NCBI GenBank assembly: GCA_003388505.1
Contig: QQVO01000015.1
Coordinates: forward strand, 62,001-126,000
Origin: Planctomycetota bacterium
GTDB taxonomy: Bacteria > Planctomycetota > Planctomycetia > Planctomycetales > Planctomycetaceae
Length of the DNA: 64,000 bases
Reading direction: 5' to 3'
In this document: piece by piece, positions 27,511 to 55,279 of the stretch
Numbering within the stretch: the first letter of the stretch is position 1
Layout of the letters: each line of letters starts with the position of its first letter
Translations under genes and position numbers: made by a program
The notes under the pieces: generated by a model
Told to the model about the DNA's origin: nothing
What the model saw: only the letters and a program-made list of their open reading frames with translations
Database searches by the model: none

Positions 27511-27584
27511 GTAGGGCCGGCTATGCCGGCCGCCTCCTTCAAATATTCCGCTGCACTTCCACGGCCGGCATAGCCGGCCCTACT
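27511..27584. repeat. Inverted repeat E, copy 1
   Basis: GTAGGGCCGGCTATGCCGGCCG at the left pairs with CGGCCGGCATAGCCGGCCCTAC at the right across about 30 bases. Related copies: 55276-55350 and 55934-56000. It lies directly after the sulfatase stop and could stop transcription, but there is no T-run. Confidence 0.75.
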
Positions 27585-27594
27585 TGCTAGTTGC

Positions 27595-28149
27595 TTATAA
27601 CCCAAGCTCACTCGGCAGTTCTCTTGTGCCGTCTCGCATCCTGGCGATCCAGTCATCATATTCTTCTGGCGAAAACTCGCCGAAGACAACTCGCCCATCT
27701 GACAGTAAAAACATCGCCAGCATTGTCAGGCCACTGGAATCAACAGCCGAATCATGCAATGATTCTGCACTATCGCATGCTATGACAACCACCCGACGCC
27801 CTTCTTCGCCCGCTGCTATGTCATCATGAGTCATTGAGCTATTCACCACATACTCCCCGTGCTCTGGGTTCGATGAGGCTGGGCAACGAAGAACCACTTC
27901 AGGTACGCAATGCGGCGACTTCCAATGGTCACAGTCCAACCCGTGAAGAGTAAACTCGCCATCCGTGTTCCGGGGAAGGTCGTGATTTGCGGATCCGTAG
28001 CTACGCAACGCACTGTGAATCTGGTTCAGGTGTTCTCTGCATTGTGTGCGCAGTCTTGCGTTCCTCACGTCAGCGCATGATGTAAGTGCAACCACGATCA
28101 CGGCAGTTGCACAGAACCAAGTTACTGCACGACACCATCGGTCCCGCAT
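27595..28149 (-). CDS. DUF1559-like lipoprotein, downstream of orphan Rhs tip
   Basis: ATG 28149 gives a lipoprotein signal (VIVVALTSC, lipobox LTSC) and lies 35 bp after the stop of the Rhs fragment. The 184-aa product continues RNARLRTQCREHLNQIHSALRSYGSANHDLP, which resembles the start of DUF1559 proteins after their pilin-like helix, but the type IV pilin cleavage motif is replaced by a lipobox. The C-terminal part is acidic and unrecognised. It has lower GC than core genes. By position it could be the immunity or accessory partner of the Rhs tip; the DUF1559 resemblance gives no function. Confidence 0.7.
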   Translation of the reverse strand: MRDRWCRAVTWFCATAVIVVALTSCADVRNARLRTQCREHLNQIHSALRSYGSANHDLPRNTDGEFTLHGLDCDHWKSPHCVPEVVLRCPASSNPEHGEYVVNSSMTHDDIAAGEEGRRVVVIACDSAESLHDSAVDSSGLTMLAMFLLSDGRVVFGEFSPEEYDDWIARMRDGTRELPSELGL

Positions 28150-28184
28150 ATTGGCCCCATTGCCACCCGATTTGCGTTTTCCAC

Positions 28185-30041
28185 TCAGAAGTTGGAAGTC
28201 CACCCGAATCCATCCTTTCCCGGTGCCCAATACCATTGTCCCCCACACCAGAAGTCGATGGCTGCAACAGTCTTTCCCGTCCGTTTACAGTTGATAATTC
28301 CCCACATGTGATCGCCGACAGGCCATGACGTATCGTATCCAGTGCCTGTATAATCGAAGTAATCATCGACTGCGCCGATTACCTTGTCTATCTCGTCTTC
28401 AACATGTTGCTGGCACGCGGTGCACACTTGTCCAAAATACGAGAATCGTGCAGGTCCGCCACCTTCACTGATCCTATCGCGAGCCTTTCCGAGCGCGCCG
28501 ATGATCTCCGTAACCTCCGTTTCACACTTGCCTTTCTGAACTGGTGTTGGTAGCCCAGCGCAACATTCAGCAATAAGATGCGATGTGAGACCCTCATCTG
28601 CGGCGCGGTCCAGCGCGGCGATATACCTGATTCCGCAGTCGTTGTAGCACCTGGAGCGAGGGAGAATCCAAAAGTGTTTGGACAAGCAGTTCTCCATACA
28701 GGCGACTAGCGCATCTTCGCATTCCGTGTTTGTAGAACAGTCGTCAAGCGTAATGAGGCCTGAAGCATCGGTCAGGTTCAACGGATTGTTGAGGACAAAC
28801 GTGTAGCAGTTTGCGACCGCATCGAGCAAGACTGAAGTGACGTCGCAGAGTGGATCAATACTCAACCATTGTCCTTGGCCTGGATGGTAGGCCCGAGCGC
28901 GGACGTACATCTGCCCATACACTTTGTTGGTGAAGTAGCCATGCGCACCGCTGAAGCCAAATGAAGACTCCGTTGTCCCCAAAGTGACGAGGCGCCTGCC
29001 CCAAGCGTCGTATAGTCGCTGGGCCGTGGTGGTTTCATTGGAGTCAGTCAGTTCCCTAGTCGATCCGATTGCGTCGAAGTGAAAATAGTGAGCCTCGGTG
29101 TCCCGCCTCTGGCTGACCAGGTTCCCGTACAGCCGGGGCTCATTCGTGTACACCACCTGCGTGTCGTCGTTCTCATCCGTCTCCGCCAGATAGTTCTGTC
29201 CGTCCCACACGAACTTCTTCGTGCCGGTCGACTCCTCCAGCTTCACCCGCAGACCGTCCGGTTCGTAGGCCATCGTGTTGCGGACGCCTGACGGGAGTTG
29301 AGCCGAAGTCATCCGGTTCTCGTAATCCCACACGTACGTCGTCCGCTCGCCGGAGGGCTGCTCGACGACCTCCTGGTTGCCGTCCGCATCGAACGTGTAC
29401 GTCGTCCGGCCGGAGGCGTCCTCGCTGTAGATGATCTGATTCGCCGCATCGTAGCTATAGCTGGTCCGGGCGCCGTCGTGGATCTTCAACAGCCGGTTTC
29501 CGGCCGGGTCGTAGGTGTAGGTGTCCCGGTAGGCATTACTGCCGGTGCGGTGTTCTCCGGTGAGCTGGTAGGTGGCGTCGTAGCTCCAGGTGACGCGGCT
29601 GCCGTCCGCCTCCAGGACAGCCGTGCGGTTGCCGACCTTGTCGTAATCGTAATCGAAACTGGAGATCGTTGTGCCGTCGCTCTTGAGGTTGGCCAGCCGG
29701 GTGAGATTCCCAGCAGCGTCGTACGAGAACGACGCCCGCGTGCCGTTCGCCAGTTTCTTGACGGTCCGCCGTCCGGCCGGATCGTAGCCGTACGTCGCCC
29801 GCTCCCTCTGCGGGTTGACGACTTCCTTGATGCGGTTCACCGAATCATACGCGTAGGTGAACCGTCCCCCGTCCGGATCGGTCATCCCCACACGGTTGCG
29901 GACCGAAACATAACGAGCAGGTGACGGACTACTTCGGACTTTCCATGATCCTGCACTCCAATACTTGAATCCATCCGTTGTTCGCGTTCGACCTGACGCG
30001 CTACGGTGAATTGAGATCGCGCAAGGCACTTGAAGACCCAC
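28185..30041 (-). CDS. Rhs/YD-repeat core fragment with Cys-rich tip B (orphan)
   Basis: Residues about 46-370 are YD repeats and the Rhs-associated core (repeats of GRxTxYxYDxxGN type, then GQWLSIDP...NNPLNLTDASG). They are nearly identical to the core of the Rhs gene at 31562-33454. The first 45 residues do not match Rhs, overlap the 3' end of the propeller gene by 41 bp, and are probably not real, so the fragment is 5'-truncated; an internal GTG or ATG near 29895 may be used, or it may be silent. After the core an unrelated tip of about 190 residues holds some 14 cysteines and ends DGFGWTSNF. Architecture fits orphan Rhs tip modules that feed tip exchange. The toxic activity is unknown. 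Confidence 0.75.
   Translation of the reverse strand: MGLQVPCAISIHRSASGRTRTTDGFKYWSAGSWKVRSSPSPARYVSVRNRVGMTDPDGGRFTYAYDSVNRIKEVVNPQRERATYGYDPAGRRTVKKLANGTRASFSYDAAGNLTRLANLKSDGTTISSFDYDYDKVGNRTAVLEADGSRVTWSYDATYQLTGEHRTGSNAYRDTYTYDPAGNRLLKIHDGARTSYSYDAANQIIYSEDASGRTTYTFDADGNQEVVEQPSGERTTYVWDYENRMTSAQLPSGVRNTMAYEPDGLRVKLEESTGTKKFVWDGQNYLAETDENDDTQVVYTNEPRLYGNLVSQRRDTEAHYFHFDAIGSTRELTDSNETTTAQRLYDAWGRRLVTLGTTESSFGFSGAHGYFTNKVYGQMYVRARAYHPGQGQWLSIDPLCDVTSVLLDAVANCYTFVLNNPLNLTDASGLITLDDCSTNTECEDALVACMENCLSKHFWILPRSRCYNDCGIRYIAALDRAADEGLTSHLIAECCAGLPTPVQKGKCETEVTEIIGALGKARDRISEGGGPARFSYFGQVCTACQQHVEDEIDKVIGAVDDYFDYTGTGYDTSWPVGDHMWGIINCKRTGKTVAAIDFWCGGQWYWAPGKDGFGWTSNF
29040..29905 (-). repeat. 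Direct repeat of Rhs core, copy 1
   Basis: About 0.86 kb highly similar to 32555-33410 in the same orientation. Similarity ends abruptly at GCGGAC near 29905 and fades after the RSTREL-encoding region near 29040. Long enough for homologous recombination between the two Rhs genes. Confidence 0.8.
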
Positions 30042-31536
30042 TTTCCCTGAGCCTCATTTGCAACAGAGTGTAGTCCAGCGCATATAACTGCCCCTTTGTG
30101 GGCACGTAAAGCACCCCATCGGATACTTCGGGCGATCCGATCAGTAGTTCGTCAAATTCGAGAACGGCAATCTTTTCCATGTTCTCATCAGCCGTCACGC
30201 CCAGCAAACCATCCAATGTCGGAATCCACAACACGCCATCCGGTGTAACACACGGAGATGGGAATCCATTCAATCGTGGACCATTGATCACGTCCAGCAG
30301 TGATTTTCGGCATTCACCTGTCACCCGGTCGACGGCGAAAATGGACCCTGTGTCCTCGCTGACGGTGAACACGTGCGGGCCATGGACGATCGCACGACTG
30401 TACGTGCAGTCAAAGTCACGATCGTGGAACTTCCACGCAGCCGACGCCGTCAATCCGTCTCCATGCCGAAGAGACACCGCGACCAGCGGCGAATCAAGTG
30501 TTTTCCCATACAGATCAGTTGCCAAGCCGACATAGATGACGTTCTCGTCGATCACCAACGGGGCTACAAAGAAGCACCGAGTTCCCCTCTCTCTCGTCCA
30601 GTAGGTGGCACTTGGTTTGTTCAGATCAAGTTGGGTCTTCAGTTCGCCTGTCCGAGCTGCAAAGCAGTACAGAATTCCGTCTCCTCCAGGAAATACGACA
30701 ATCGGTTCGGGCCCGCCAGTCCACACAACCGGAGATGACCAGGAGTACACCAGATTCAGCCCTGGCGCCTTGCTCGACCAGACGACATCGCCAGACGAAC
30801 GCCGTACCGCGATAAAGGACGGGGCGTTTGGCGCTCGAATACGATCCACGCCAGTAGGACCGCTTTCCTCGAATGCTCGCCCATTTCCCGTCACACAGAA
30901 GACCATGTCTTCCCACACGCACGGACTGCATGCTGGATTGCCGCCACTCGAGTCAACTCGGTAAACACCAAGTTGCGAGATCATATCAAGCTTCCAAACG
31001 ACATCGGCCGCCGGTAGATTTGCCCCCGCTAGCGCGCTCCCCATGGGATATTTGGCAACGCCGTCATCCTCACCATCGGCGAATCCGTGAATGTCGAGAC
31101 ACACCAGTTCGCCACGATTGCTTACGTAGAAGACTTGCTCGGAGTCAATTGTTGGGCGTGACATCACGCCCAAGAATGATTGGCAAAAAGAGTCATCGTT
31201 GTCTCGGTGGCTGTGAGTGATGTGCCAGAGCAATTCTCCTTGTTCTGCATCTATGTAGACTACTGCTCCTCGGGCACTTCTCGCACCGCCGCCCGTTTCT
31301 CGACCATTTCGAAGCGCACTAGTTGCAACGACAACCCCATCGTCCGCGATGGAGATCTGCGCTGCCGCATGTCCGATTGGATGCCTCCATAAAACACACT
31401 CATTACCGTCCTCTCCCAGTGTGATATGAGTGACTGCGGTTGCATCTTGTCCCGACGCAGTTCGGAGAGACTGAATGCTGGAAGCCAGAACAATGGCAAC
31501 CCAAACAACAGAACCGACCATATGTGATGCTGGCAT
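30001..31536 (-). CDS. Exported PQQ-type beta-propeller protein in the Rhs locus
   Basis: ATG 31536, 25 bp after the stop of the upstream Rhs gene, gives a Sec signal (MPASHMVGSVVWVAIVLASS); longer in-frame starts would run into the Rhs gene. The 511-aa product has propeller blades of the BamB/PQQ type (VVYIDAEQGELLWHI, GILYCFAARTGELKTQLDL, GSIFAVDRVTGECRK). No quinoprotein active-site residues can be assigned by eye. It is AT-richer than the core genes. Its place right after an Rhs tip is where an immunity gene is normally found, but a propeller of this size would be unusual in that role; it may instead bind or display the tip at the cell surface. Confidence 0.75.
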   Translation of the reverse strand: MPASHMVGSVVWVAIVLASSIQSLRTASGQDATAVTHITLGEDGNECVLWRHPIGHAAAQISIADDGVVVATSALRNGRETGGGARSARGAVVYIDAEQGELLWHITHSHRDNDDSFCQSFLGVMSRPTIDSEQVFYVSNRGELVCLDIHGFADGEDDGVAKYPMGSALAGANLPAADVVWKLDMISQLGVYRVDSSGGNPACSPCVWEDMVFCVTGNGRAFEESGPTGVDRIRAPNAPSFIAVRRSSGDVVWSSKAPGLNLVYSWSSPVVWTGGPEPIVVFPGGDGILYCFAARTGELKTQLDLNKPSATYWTRERGTRCFFVAPLVIDENVIYVGLATDLYGKTLDSPLVAVSLRHGDGLTASAAWKFHDRDFDCTYSRAIVHGPHVFTVSEDTGSIFAVDRVTGECRKSLLDVINGPRLNGFPSPCVTPDGVLWIPTLDGLLGVTADENMEKIAVLEFDELLIGSPEVSDGVLYVPTKGQLYALDYTLLQMRLRESGSSSALRDLNSP

Positions 31537-31561
31537 GCTGAACACCGTTGTCTTCCACGAT

Positions 31562-33454
31562 TCAGTTGGATGGCGGGAGTGTTTTCCCAGCGGAGGGAAG
31601 TCCGTCTGGACATGGCCCCTTGTTGGGGTCACCGGGATGCAACTGTGCGATAAGATCACACAGTTCAGAAGCAACGTGGTCCACATCGTACCAATTCGTC
31701 GGAACAAAGTGAGTGCTCCCGCCATCAATACACCCCCCCAGCGTATGTTCGTGGATGCCGACGACGAGCGGACAGAATTGAAAGTACGATTGATCTTCTC
31801 CACAAGTGCTGTTACGAATCTGCACGTTGACAAGCGTGGTCAAGGCATTGTTCCACGGATCGGCCTTTACGCCCACCTTGCCATGACAACCCACGTATCC
31901 CACACCGCCGTCACCTTTGAACGGACCGTCGCGTCTGTCGCACCGGAAGAAGCTAAGTACGATTTCGAGATCGAACGTGCAGCAGGTATTCGGGTCGGTT
32001 ACGCCAGTTTGCCTAAACGTCTGGGGGAGATGGTATTGCTTTATCCAACGATAGTCCTGCTGTCTATCAGGATCATATGGCACCTTCTCCGGAAACGGCA
32101 CAATTGGTAAGTCCACAATGCCGTTACGCGAGCAAGGAAGGAAGACTGCTTTCGACAGATCACACCCGGGACACCATGGAGGGCATGGGTCGACAGCTTC
32201 GGGGAGCACAATCTTTACACTTGGCCCCCCATTGGCAATTTGTGAAGGGGGCGGTGGCGGGACATCCGGAGGGAGTGGTTGCCAACCGGATGGGTCAAGC
32301 GCCATAGTCGGGGCGTTCTTGACGTAAGCATACGCATTGAGGACACGCATGCGCCCTGCTGCATCCACTGCCATCCATGAACCACGAGCCGGAATATAAC
32401 TACGAGCGCGTACATACATTCCACTCCAGTCCACCTGACTATAATAGCCAACTTGGCCGAAGCTCAGAAAAACGAATGACGTCGATCCAGTGGAATGCAA
32501 GACAGCACCCCAGGCATCATAGAATCGAGTGTCTGTGACGATCTCACTGGAATCGGTGAGCTCCCTCGTCGACCCGATCGCGTCGAAGTGATACCAGTGC
32601 GTGTCACTCCTCCGCCTCTGGCTGACCAGGTTCCCGTACAGCCGCGGCTCATTTGTGTACACCACCTGCGTGTCGTCGTTGCCGTCCGTCTCGGCCAGGT
32701 AGTTCTGCTCGTCCCACACGAACTTCTTTATGCCGGTCGATTCCTCCAGCTTCACCCGCAGGCCGTCCGGCTCGTAGGCCATTGTGTTGCGGACGCCTGA
32801 GGGAAGCTCTACGAGCGTGGTGCGGTTCTCGTAGTCCCAGCTTGTCGTCGTGCGGTCAACACTCGGCTCGACCACCAGTTCCTGGTTGCCGTCCGCGTCA
32901 AACATGTACGTCGTCCTCCCGGAGGCGTCTTCACTCCACTCAAGCTGATTGGCCGCATCGTAGCTGTAGCTCGTCCGGGCGCCGTCGTGGATCTTCAGCA
33001 GCCGGTTTCCGGCCGGGTCGTAGGTGTATGTGTCCCGGTAGGCGTTGCTGCCGGTGCGGTGTTCGCCGGTAAGCTGATAGGTATCGTCGTAACTCCAGGT
33101 GACCCGGCTACCGTCCGCCTCCAGCACGGCCGTGCGATTGCCGACCTTGTCGTAGTCGTAGTTGAAGCTCGAAATCGTCGTGCCGTCGCTCTTGAGATTG
33201 GCCAGCCGGGTGAGATTCCCAGCAGCGTCGTACGAGAACGACGCCCGCGTGCCGTTGGCCAGTTTCTTGACCGTCCGTCGACCGGCCGGATCGTAGGCGT
33301 ACGTCGTCCGCTCGCCCTGCGGGTTGACCATATGAGTCATCCGGTTGACCGAATCGTAGGCGTACGTAAATCGTCCGCCGTCGGAATCAGTCATGCCCAC
33401 GCGATTGCGGACGGAGTCGTAGCGGTAAGAGATGGTTTTCCTGGTGCCGGCCAT
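31562..33454 (-). CDS. Short Rhs/YD-repeat protein with Cys-rich tip A
   Basis: ATG 33454 is fixed by a strong ribosome-binding site (AAGGAGG six bases upstream). The 630-aa product begins almost at once with YD repeats (KTISYRYDSVRNRVGM), so it lacks the long N-terminal shell, signal peptide or PAAR domain of full Rhs toxins. The core ends in YVRARSYIPARGSW...LDPSGWQPLPP, followed by a Pro-rich hinge and a tip of about 220 residues with over a dozen Cys (PCPPWCPGCDLSK onward). The tip is AT-richer than the core and unrelated to tip B. Rhs proteins deliver toxic tips to neighbours; with no delivery domain here, the route of export is unclear. Confidence 0.82.
   Translation of the reverse strand: MAGTRKTISYRYDSVRNRVGMTDSDGGRFTYAYDSVNRMTHMVNPQGERTTYAYDPAGRRTVKKLANGTRASFSYDAAGNLTRLANLKSDGTTISSFNYDYDKVGNRTAVLEADGSRVTWSYDDTYQLTGEHRTGSNAYRDTYTYDPAGNRLLKIHDGARTSYSYDAANQLEWSEDASGRTTYMFDADGNQELVVEPSVDRTTTSWDYENRTTLVELPSGVRNTMAYEPDGLRVKLEESTGIKKFVWDEQNYLAETDGNDDTQVVYTNEPRLYGNLVSQRRRSDTHWYHFDAIGSTRELTDSSEIVTDTRFYDAWGAVLHSTGSTSFVFLSFGQVGYYSQVDWSGMYVRARSYIPARGSWMAVDAAGRMRVLNAYAYVKNAPTMALDPSGWQPLPPDVPPPPPSQIANGGPSVKIVLPEAVDPCPPWCPGCDLSKAVFLPCSRNGIVDLPIVPFPEKVPYDPDRQQDYRWIKQYHLPQTFRQTGVTDPNTCCTFDLEIVLSFFRCDRRDGPFKGDGGVGYVGCHGKVGVKADPWNNALTTLVNVQIRNSTCGEDQSYFQFCPLVVGIHEHTLGGCIDGGSTHFVPTNWYDVDHVASELCDLIAQLHPGDPNKGPCPDGLPSAGKTLPPSN
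32555..33410 (-). repeat. Direct repeat of Rhs core, copy 2
   Basis: Partner of 29040-29905. Recombination between them would remove about 3.5 kb and join tip B to the well-translated start at 33454. Confidence 0.8.
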
Positions 33455-33460
33455 GAGGGG

Positions 33461-33467
33461 CCTCCTT
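33461..33467 (-). promoter_or_regulatory. Strong ribosome-binding site of the Rhs gene
   Basis: AAGGAGG on the minus strand, six bases before ATG 33454. It is the best Shine-Dalgarno match I noticed in the window and decides the start of the otherwise N-terminally short Rhs protein. Confidence 0.85.
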
Positions 33468-33647
33468 GAAGCGTGCGGCAGGGGAGTGCGAAGTCTCCAG
33501 ACGAGAAAGGAAGACGGCGGCGGGTGGCGTGTCCAGAGCCCACCGCCGGGAACGGTCAGCAGTCAGCATACGCGCAGGCAACCGCCCATCAAGGAGATTC
33601 GGAGGAAATCCCGAACATATGCAGCAGCCCGGATGCGTCCAAAAAAA

Positions 33648-52960: not shown

Positions 52961-55279
52961 ATGTTCGATCGCCTCGCCAACCTCTTGACCCGCCGCGCTC
53001 CGTTCGTCGCGCTCCTGCTGCTGTCGCTGACAGCCCTCGCAGCCGTCCAGGCGACGCAGATTCAATTCGAGTTCTCGCCCCAGGCGCTGATGCGCGGCGA
53101 AGACGAGTCGTATCAGCAATTGCAGGACTTCAAACAGACCTTCGCCTACGAAGACTCCGTCCTGATGATCATCGTCGAGGCGACGGGCGACGCCAATGTC
53201 CTCGACCACCGCCTGCTCAACTGGCAGGCGCACGTTGCCGAGCAATTGCGCGCCGTCCCGCACGTCGACGAAGTGGCGACGCTGGCAACGATCGAAATTC
53301 CGCGGCGCACCCTGGAGTTCCCCCCTTCCGTCACGGCGCGGCCGTTTATCGCCGAATTTCCTGCCGACGAAACCGACAGCCGCCGGCTCCGCCGGCTCGT
53401 TGATGAGTCGCCGCTTCTCGCCGGCACGCTCGTCAGTTCCGACCTGCAGGTCGCTGCCCTGCTCGCGTTCATCGACCCGGAGTTGCAGCGCGTCCGCGAA
53501 TTATCAGTCGTCATCGACGACGTCCAACAGTTGCTCCAGTCTTCCCCCCCACCCACCGGGTACCGCACGTCACTCAGCGGACTGCCCTTCATCCGCACAG
53601 ACACCATCAAGAACCTGCAGCAGGACCAGCAGCGGCTGCTGCCGATCGCAGCGATCCTCTACCTCCTCACGCTGGCCATCATCTTTCGCCGCGTCTCCGG
53701 CAGCCTGTTGCCCCTGCTGGCTGTCGGCATGGGGCTGGCGTGGACCATCGGCGCCGTCGTTGCGGTCGGTGCAACATTCAACCTTGTCAGCAACGTGCTG
53801 CCCATCCTGCTCATCGTCGTAGGCGTCTCAAACTGCGTCCACGTGCTGGACGAGTATGCAGAACAGTTGCCTTTGGCCCGCGGCGACCGCATCGCAGCCG
53901 CCAGAAACACCGTGCGGCACATGAGCCGCTCCTGCCTGCTCACGCTCTTCACCACCGCCGTCGGCTTCGCCTGCCTCGGGACCGCTCAATCGGATGTGCT
54001 CCGGGAATTCGGCTGGCAGGCCGCGCTCGGCATGGGATTCATGTACGTCACCATCATCGGCGGGCTCGGCAGCCTCATGCAGTACTTCCGCCCGCCCCGC
54101 CGCAGCACCCGCGGCGCGCCCCTCGGCCACGTCACGGCCGCCGCCGGACGCGTCATCGATCGTCACCCCCGCATCACGCTGACCTTCAGTGGACTCCTGA
54201 TCGCCGCCTCCGTCTGGCTCGGCCTCCATGTCCCGGTCGATTCGTTCATGATTGAGACCTACGACGACGACCATCCCACCCTCCAGACCTTGCGTCTCGT
54301 CGACAACAAGCTCTCCGGACTCCTTCCCATTGAGGTGCGGCTGCACGCCGATGACCCCGAACGACTGCTCGACCCGGACGTCTTCCGCAAGGTTCGGCAA
54401 TTCGAAGAACATGCGCTGCAGGAGGACGGCGTCCTGTTCGCCCGCTCCTACGCCGATGTGCTGCAGTCCATCTCGACCGGCACGCCTTCGCCGACTGCCG
54501 CAGACGACGAATTGCCCGTCTCCGACGAGGAGCTCACGCGAGACATCCGGCTCGGCGTGTGGGTCGTCAACCGCGTCGGTGCGACGCTCGGCTATCCCAA
54601 CTTCATGACCGAAGACGGCCGCGACGGCCGCATCCTCATCAAAGTGCAGGACATCGGCACACTCCGCCTCAAAAAGCTCATCAACCAACTCGAAGCAGAA
54701 CTGCTCCAGGCCTTTCCCCCGGGCAGCGGCGTCACGCCCACTCTCACCGGCGACGCCTACCTCAACACCATCGCCATGAACGCCGTCATTCACGACCTCT
54801 TCTATTCGCTGCTGACCGCTTCGCTCATCATCTTCGCCACCATCGCCCTCATCTTCCGCTCGCTCAGGACGGGACTGATCGCCGCCATCCCCAATCTCAC
54901 ACCCCTCGCGCTCACGCTCGGTTACATGCGGCTCAGAGGCTACGACATGAACGTCGGCAACGTGATCGTGTTCACCATCAGTCTGGGGATTGCGGTCGAC
55001 GATTCGATTCACTTCCTGTTTCGCTTCCGCGAAGAGATGAAACGGACCGGCTGCGTCGAGGAGGCGGTGGTGCGCACGTTCGAGGGGACCGGGCGGGCGA
55101 TCGTGATCACCAGCATCCTGATCGTGGCGGGGCTGGCGGTGCTGCTCTTTTCAGACTTCGTGCCGACGCGGCGGTTCGCCGAACTCACCTGCGTGACGAT
55201 GGTGGGCGCCCTGATCGGCGTCCTGCTCCTGCTGCCGGCGTGCCTGGTGCTCTTCTGGAAACGGCCGCCAACCTCGTAG
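52961..55279 (+). CDS. RND/MMPL-family transporter
   Basis: ATG 52961 is used because the upstream in-frame part (from 52835) is repeat C. The 772-aa product has an N-terminal helix (PFVALLLLSLTALAAV), a first loop (about 35-210), helices with VLPILLIVVGVSNCVHVLDEY, a second loop (about 410-590) and a closing five-helix block containing FTISLGIAVDDSIHFLFRFREE. The two conserved DD/D-bearing helices are those used for proton relay or lipid passage in MMPL proteins. No partner genes nearby. Shares its plan with 45660-48383. Confidence 0.9.
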   Translation: MFDRLANLLTRRAPFVALLLLSLTALAAVQATQIQFEFSPQALMRGEDESYQQLQDFKQTFAYEDSVLMIIVEATGDANVLDHRLLNWQAHVAEQLRAVPHVDEVATLATIEIPRRTLEFPPSVTARPFIAEFPADETDSRRLRRLVDESPLLAGTLVSSDLQVAALLAFIDPELQRVRELSVVIDDVQQLLQSSPPPTGYRTSLSGLPFIRTDTIKNLQQDQQRLLPIAAILYLLTLAIIFRRVSGSLLPLLAVGMGLAWTIGAVVAVGATFNLVSNVLPILLIVVGVSNCVHVLDEYAEQLPLARGDRIAAARNTVRHMSRSCLLTLFTTAVGFACLGTAQSDVLREFGWQAALGMGFMYVTIIGGLGSLMQYFRPPRRSTRGAPLGHVTAAAGRVIDRHPRITLTFSGLLIAASVWLGLHVPVDSFMIETYDDDHPTLQTLRLVDNKLSGLLPIEVRLHADDPERLLDPDVFRKVRQFEEHALQEDGVLFARSYADVLQSISTGTPSPTAADDELPVSDEELTRDIRLGVWVVNRVGATLGYPNFMTEDGRDGRILIKVQDIGTLRLKKLINQLEAELLQAFPPGSGVTPTLTGDAYLNTIAMNAVIHDLFYSLLTASLIIFATIALIFRSLRTGLIAAIPNLTPLALTLGYMRLRGYDMNVGNVIVFTISLGIAVDDSIHFLFRFREEMKRTGCVEEAVVRTFEGTGRAIVITSILIVAGLAVLLFSDFVPTRRFAELTCVTMVGALIGVLLLLPACLVLFWKRPPTS

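Follow-up and report, generated by a model that had tools for sequence, protein, structure and literature searches.

On the evidence of its sequence, the Rhs locus described here holds two different kinds of gene: copy A is a solitary, separately initiated C-terminal half (C-half) of a fissioned Rhs, and copy B is a start-less orphan cassette. That the variable tips and their partner genes form cassettes hung on a common Rhs core is well supported by base composition and by a ribonuclease tip paired with barstar on another Rhs of the genome. The explanation that we favour, at slightly better than even confidence, is that such cassettes encode envelope-acting polymorphic toxins and exported immunity proteins carried on a two-gene Rhs shell. 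It draws on conserved fission points with their own starts, the linkage and composition of tips and partners, export features (hydrophobicity, lipobox) and the enzyme families of some relatives' tips, and from these we infer toxicity, immunity, assembly in trans, autoproteolysis and delivery.

Layout of the locus and divergence of the cores

The window, i.e. the whole 64,000-nt stretch of DNA analysed (G000:C1:62001-126000), comes from a 6.78-Mb host genome that is 98.8% complete. The PSCyt2/PSD1, DUF1501, WD40 and sulfatase genes that surround the Rhs locus suggest a planctomycete; on the minus strand, past the WD40 gene, the order is copy A, a PQQ propeller gene, copy B and a lipoprotein gene, with the following features.

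33455..33602, minus strand: leader of copy A, with a promoter-like pair and AAGGAGG
31562..33454, minus strand: copy A, 630 aa, an independently started Rhs C-half (Rhs_assc_core 42.2 bits; RHS_repeat E 2.5e-20)
32507..33454, minus strand: copy A core, codons 1-316, to YDAWG (alignment to the C41 C-half and copy B)
32285..32506, minus strand: copy A C-terminal plug with two Asp (VDAAG...LDPSG; alignment A1), divergence already present
31565..32284, minus strand: tip A, 240 aa, 13 Cys, no Pfam/NCBIfam match
30001..31536, minus strand: partner A, 511 aa, an exported beta-propeller protein resembling PQQ/BamB (PF13360 E 3.8e-15; alternative start 31545)
28998..29903, minus strand: copy B core, first residues VRNRVGMTD, without start codon or SD (alignment)
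28758..28997, minus strand: copy B C-terminal plug (IDPLC...TDASG; alignment)
28185..28757, minus strand: tip B, 190 aa with 13 Cys (coordinates include the stop), no Pfam and no significant NCBIfam match
27595..28149, minus strand: partner B, lipoprotein with lipobox LTSC, weakly DUF1559-like (PF07596 E 0.022, below cut-off)

Several elements of the initial annotation were borne out. Both Rhs ORFs share a core, with YD repeats and an Rhs-associated core (PF05593, TIGR03696) above cut-off in each copy (Rhs_assc_core cut-off 32.5 bits; copy A 42.2, copy B 49.2). Only the upstream copy has a real start, with AAGGAGG 6 nt 5' of the ATG at 33454 and no such signal at the copy B core, and a gene for an exported protein lies behind each tip, starting 16-25 nt past the stop of copy A and 35 nt past that of copy B. 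A palindromic TAGGGCCGGC...GCCGGCCCTA repeat is located at window positions 27512-27582, directly past the partner B gene, and recurs at 55277 and 55936.

The cores had also been described as nearly identical; they are indeed common to both copies, but the near-identity did not hold. Over 306 aligned codons, cores A and B share 82.8% nucleotide and 86.6% amino acid identity (dS 0.70, dN/dS 0.13), and their longest identical run is 59 nt. A third copy, on contig C41, is nearer to the copy A core than copy B is (85.3% nucleotide identity, dN/dS 0.10) and, by these measures, the cores of A, B and C41 are old paralogues evolving under purifying selection. Private changes in the copy B core number 30 silent and 14 amino-acid-changing (N/S 0.47 vs a neutral 3.27), indicating that it is still constrained despite the absent start, a constraint perhaps maintained by gene conversion. 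The homology of all three copies breaks at the same codon, 316 (YDAWG), ~75 codons short of DPxG, where the plug ends and tips usually begin. There, GC3 drops from 82-83% in the cores to 55-58% past the break, with the partner genes at 51-56%; overall, the tips have 54.5% and 53.1% GC and the cores 61.3% and 62.5%.

Fission points in family Rhs genes

The leader of copy A contains a TTGATG-16 nt-TATGCT pair at ~33592/33570, which we infer to act as a promoter, followed by AAGGAGG at 33467-33461. Its sequence is present at two genome sites only, the second being the leader of a broken Rhs start at G000:C36 (85.5% identity over 152 nt). At that second site (L032 5602-4500, minus strand), a further copy of the TAGGGCCGGC...GCCGGCCCTA palindrome interrupts the start, behind which lie a short remnant of an Rhs gene and a gene for a lipoprotein.

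In an alignment, the copy A start, MAGTRKTISYRYDSVRNR, coincides with the starts of independently initiated C-halves from C41, G070 and G004. In C41, a 1326-codon Rhs frame (protein ~1318 aa) ends ...VTTEYKV* and the C-half starts ~100 nt further on with MGSRKKTISYRYDAVRNR; in G070, an N-half ending ...LSTDYKV* is followed by a C-half starting MGTSKKTISYQYDSAGNR; and in G004, the N-half end ...VTTDYKI* is kept in a 108-codon frame with the C-half MGRSKKRIQYQYDAVGNR next to it. This first fission site therefore occupies the same place in three genera of the family (N-half end [TS]T[DE]YK[VI]*, C-half start MGxxKKxIxYxYD), between two repeats, at a point through which the unsplit Rhs proteins of the family continue uninterrupted. 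The conserved boundary, the AAGGAGG 6 nt from the ATG and the kept leader together argue that copy A is a C-half unit and not a truncated gene. The very short N-terminus without a delivery domain, as originally remarked, is thus confirmed as regards the missing domain but not as a truncation, the gene fission point being our candidate explanation for its shortness.

A second fission site lies ~240 residues past the first and recurs across the family in many genera, the N-half typically ending YNADxRRVxxE* and the C-half starting M..TxYxWDxxxDS or close to it. Here we identified 18 C-half ORFs with their own starts (L195 and L206 among them being the same cassettes repeated), most with an SD-like sequence 5' of the start and eight with a stop-to-start gap of -1 to 4 nt. 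Two C-half cassettes stand in tandem in L055, L093, L193, L195, L196 and L206. A split Rhs shell with an own start on its swappable rear half is a family-wide, apparently planctomycete design; no description of split or planctomycete Rhs was found in the part of the literature searched. The long N-halves in L053, L054 and L055 start with a Cys-rich stretch (e.g. CSPPCD...CCCPSTCG) without a signal peptide.

No N-half was found near the window, and the C41 protein is the only such N-half found in the genome. Broken C-halves are present at C41 (224 aa), C36 and L081.

Cysteine-rich tips and exported partners

Tips A and B proved to be unrelated, Cys-rich and AT-richer than the cores, as first proposed, with no detectable similarity to each other and no relatives among 398 genomes of the class. 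A scan of genome contigs for named relatives returned just two distant Desulfosporosinus loci. Structure prediction with AlphaFold2 gave no usable model for tip A (pLDDT 33) or tip B (pLDDT 48.5), and the latter returned nothing below E 0.1 in Foldseek. A papain/transglutaminase-like C-H-D pattern noticed by eye in tip B was unsupported by any profile and was set aside. No function is predicted for either tip, which counts against the envelope-toxin explanation. The two-Asp pair in the copy A plug fits the aspartyl-protease motif with an Asp pair described in PMC10684867.

Tips of several relatives were more readable. Two tips matched families above the Pfam cut-off, a phospholipase A2 (PLA2G12; L083) and a matrixin (L086), and a third gave an alpha/beta hydrolase match below it (L089; E 1e-4) with a weak Tle1-like match; all three are followed by exported partners. 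By eye, a PLA2-like CGPG...HDCC pattern was seen in L055 and HExxH in L049 and L085. As a class, the Cys-rich tips probably target the envelope. Some of the host genome's Rhs genes, at least, are polymorphic toxins, since a full-length 2459-aa Rhs on another contig (L031, G000:C53) has a ribonuclease-like tip (PF00545) followed by a barstar (PF01337), and a further Rhs tip, on C4, is followed by a SUKH-like protein.

Partner A has an N-terminal hydrophobic stretch (KD12 2.58) and a GC3 of 56, like tip A, while partner B has a GC3 of 51-52. Across 24 cassettes with exported partners, the mean GC3 gap is 4.2 points between tip and partner and 17.5 points between core and partner (p=7e-5, core vs partner); partner composition tracks the tip and not the core, an argument for joint transfer of the two. 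Both their joint GC3 and the unrelatedness of the tips identify variable tip and adjacent partner as one cassette.

A simple hydrophobicity rule decided which proteins counted as exported, and the partner was picked automatically as the longest ORF. On this basis, an exported partner lies behind 23/34 Cys-rich tips of the host family vs 2/15 Cys-poor tips. The first set, from which the idea of a link between Cys content and export arose, gave 16/23 vs 2/11, and a second set collected as a test gave 8/12 vs 0/4 (one-sided p=0.038; 7/11 and p ~0.05 after removal of one duplicate cassette, the sample being small). Outside the host family, the link fails (exported partners behind 1/9 Cys-rich tips vs 12/55; 13/64 overall), so the idea that every Cys-rich tip is followed by an exported protein does not hold there and the association is a property of the host family, not a general one. 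It had been considered odd that the partners are envelope proteins; they are indeed exported, but for the Cys-rich tips of this family that is the rule. In other families of the class, two loci (L160, G049:C50; L161, G207:C13) carry arrays of at least five short Rhs plug/tip/partner cassettes ~2 kb apart, with mostly soluble partners.

The adjacent exported protein probably protects the cell. Among the partner folds are LRR, ankyrin, WD40, PQQ propeller, small lipoproteins and one S1/P1 nuclease. The last is an unusual candidate immunity protein and follows a Cys-rich tip in L193 (4778-5323 and 3786-4802, minus strand). The expectation that homologous tips have homologous partners was true in 3/25 pairs, many of which may share only the pre-toxin region, and was abandoned. 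Only one pair of Cys-rich tips shows homology across most of its length (L082 5604-6230 and L194 1490-2119; blastp 5e-21); the two come from different genera and their exported partners are unrelated, which counts against the envelope-toxin explanation.

Proposed mechanism, alternatives and known systems

Under the proposed model, an N-half and a C-half would jointly close the Rhs shell, with copy A drawing on the C41 N-half for assembly. The two-Asp plug would cut off and release the tip, which would work outside the cytoplasm, and the exported neighbour of each tip would be its cognate immunity protein, stationed in the envelope at the site of toxin action. Copy B would represent a displaced reserve cassette, usable only once recombined behind a started core. 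The broader form of the model, in which one N-half shell is common to several separately translated, exchangeable C-halves on cassettes arranged in tandem or scattered, each with an envelope-acting enzyme and exported immunity (a planctomycete-type Rhs), is put forward tentatively, at somewhat less than even probability. As to delivery, no delivery domain was found in copy A or the C41 N-half, neither the N-half nor the C-half carries an obvious signal peptide, and the host genome returned no match to the T6SS sheath VipB/TssC (PF05943) and no phage-sheath gene.

Three other readings were weighed. Both copies may be ordinary displaced orphan Rhs debris, as in Enterobacteriaceae, with an accidental or non-functional start on copy A. 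The lack of a nearby N-half and of a copy B start, the broken C-halves elsewhere and the well-known occurrence of orphans without initiation signals (PMC3967940) are consistent with this; however, the copy A start coincides with a boundary conserved in three genera, its SD and leader also occur at C36 and the cores are under purifying selection, and we consider debris unlikely. Slightly less probable again is that the genes are not toxins at all, the C-halves serving to display enzymes or Cys-rich domains outside the cell and their partners being co-exported surface proteins that work with them. Such a role would suit the resemblance of Cys-rich tips to secreted proteins, the range of partner folds and the possibility of unrelated partners beside homologous tips. 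Yet a variable tip and neighbouring gene moved as one compositional unit is the layout of polymorphic toxins, the ribonuclease/barstar pair sits on a sister Rhs of the host genome, and PLA2 and metzincin tips suit toxins.

The initial annotation had instead proposed a hot recombining locus, with tips A and B swapped behind one start via near-identical cores. Although homology ends, and composition changes, at the same YDAWG codon in three copies of the genome, 17% of core bases differ (dS ~0.7) and no A/B recombinant was seen in the one genome of the genus compared. Frequent homologous recombination is not supported given such divergent cores, and we regard this reading as very improbable.

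If envelope-acting toxins on a two-gene shell are indeed encoded here, Rhs toxins would be able to diversify by whole-subunit swap in trans, beyond tip recombination, and to do so in bacteria without a T6SS sheath. The family would also offer a set of envelope-targeting tips and repeat-fold partners for studying immunity outside the cytoplasm.

The Tc toxin component TcB/TcC is a two-subunit Rhs cocoon in which the tip of TcC is variable. The arrangement proposed here resembles it, as a works-like comparison only, in having a two-polypeptide Rhs shell whose second member carries the plug and variable tip. Unlike in TcB/TcC, partner genes adjoin the tips, and the cut lies an estimated ~230 residues further inside than the TcC start: profile residue 21 aligns at ~1716 in TcdB2-TccC3, well inside TccC3 and away from the TcB/TcC junction, which was placed at the TccC3 start.

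The Salmonella orphan rhs-CT/rhsI modules (PMC3967940) share with this locus a conserved core, unrelated tips with their own partner genes and a start-less downstream copy. Orphan modules are usually without initiation signals (PMC3967940). Copy B is such a fragmented frame, so the initial suggestion of orphan tip/immunity modules recombining onto a main gene suits it, but not copy A, a conserved C-half with SD and ATG and no N-terminal delivery part. The locus also differs from the Salmonella modules in its exported partners and in the lack of a T6SS sheath gene in the host genome. Zhang and colleagues described most immunity proteins as cytoplasmic, with some of those for surface-acting toxins being secreted or transmembrane (PMC3482391). 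The surface-acting L,D-peptidase toxins (PMC3482391) are alike in that immunity is sited where the toxin acts; exported immunity is the exception there, whereas it would be the common state for Cys-rich tips in the host family.
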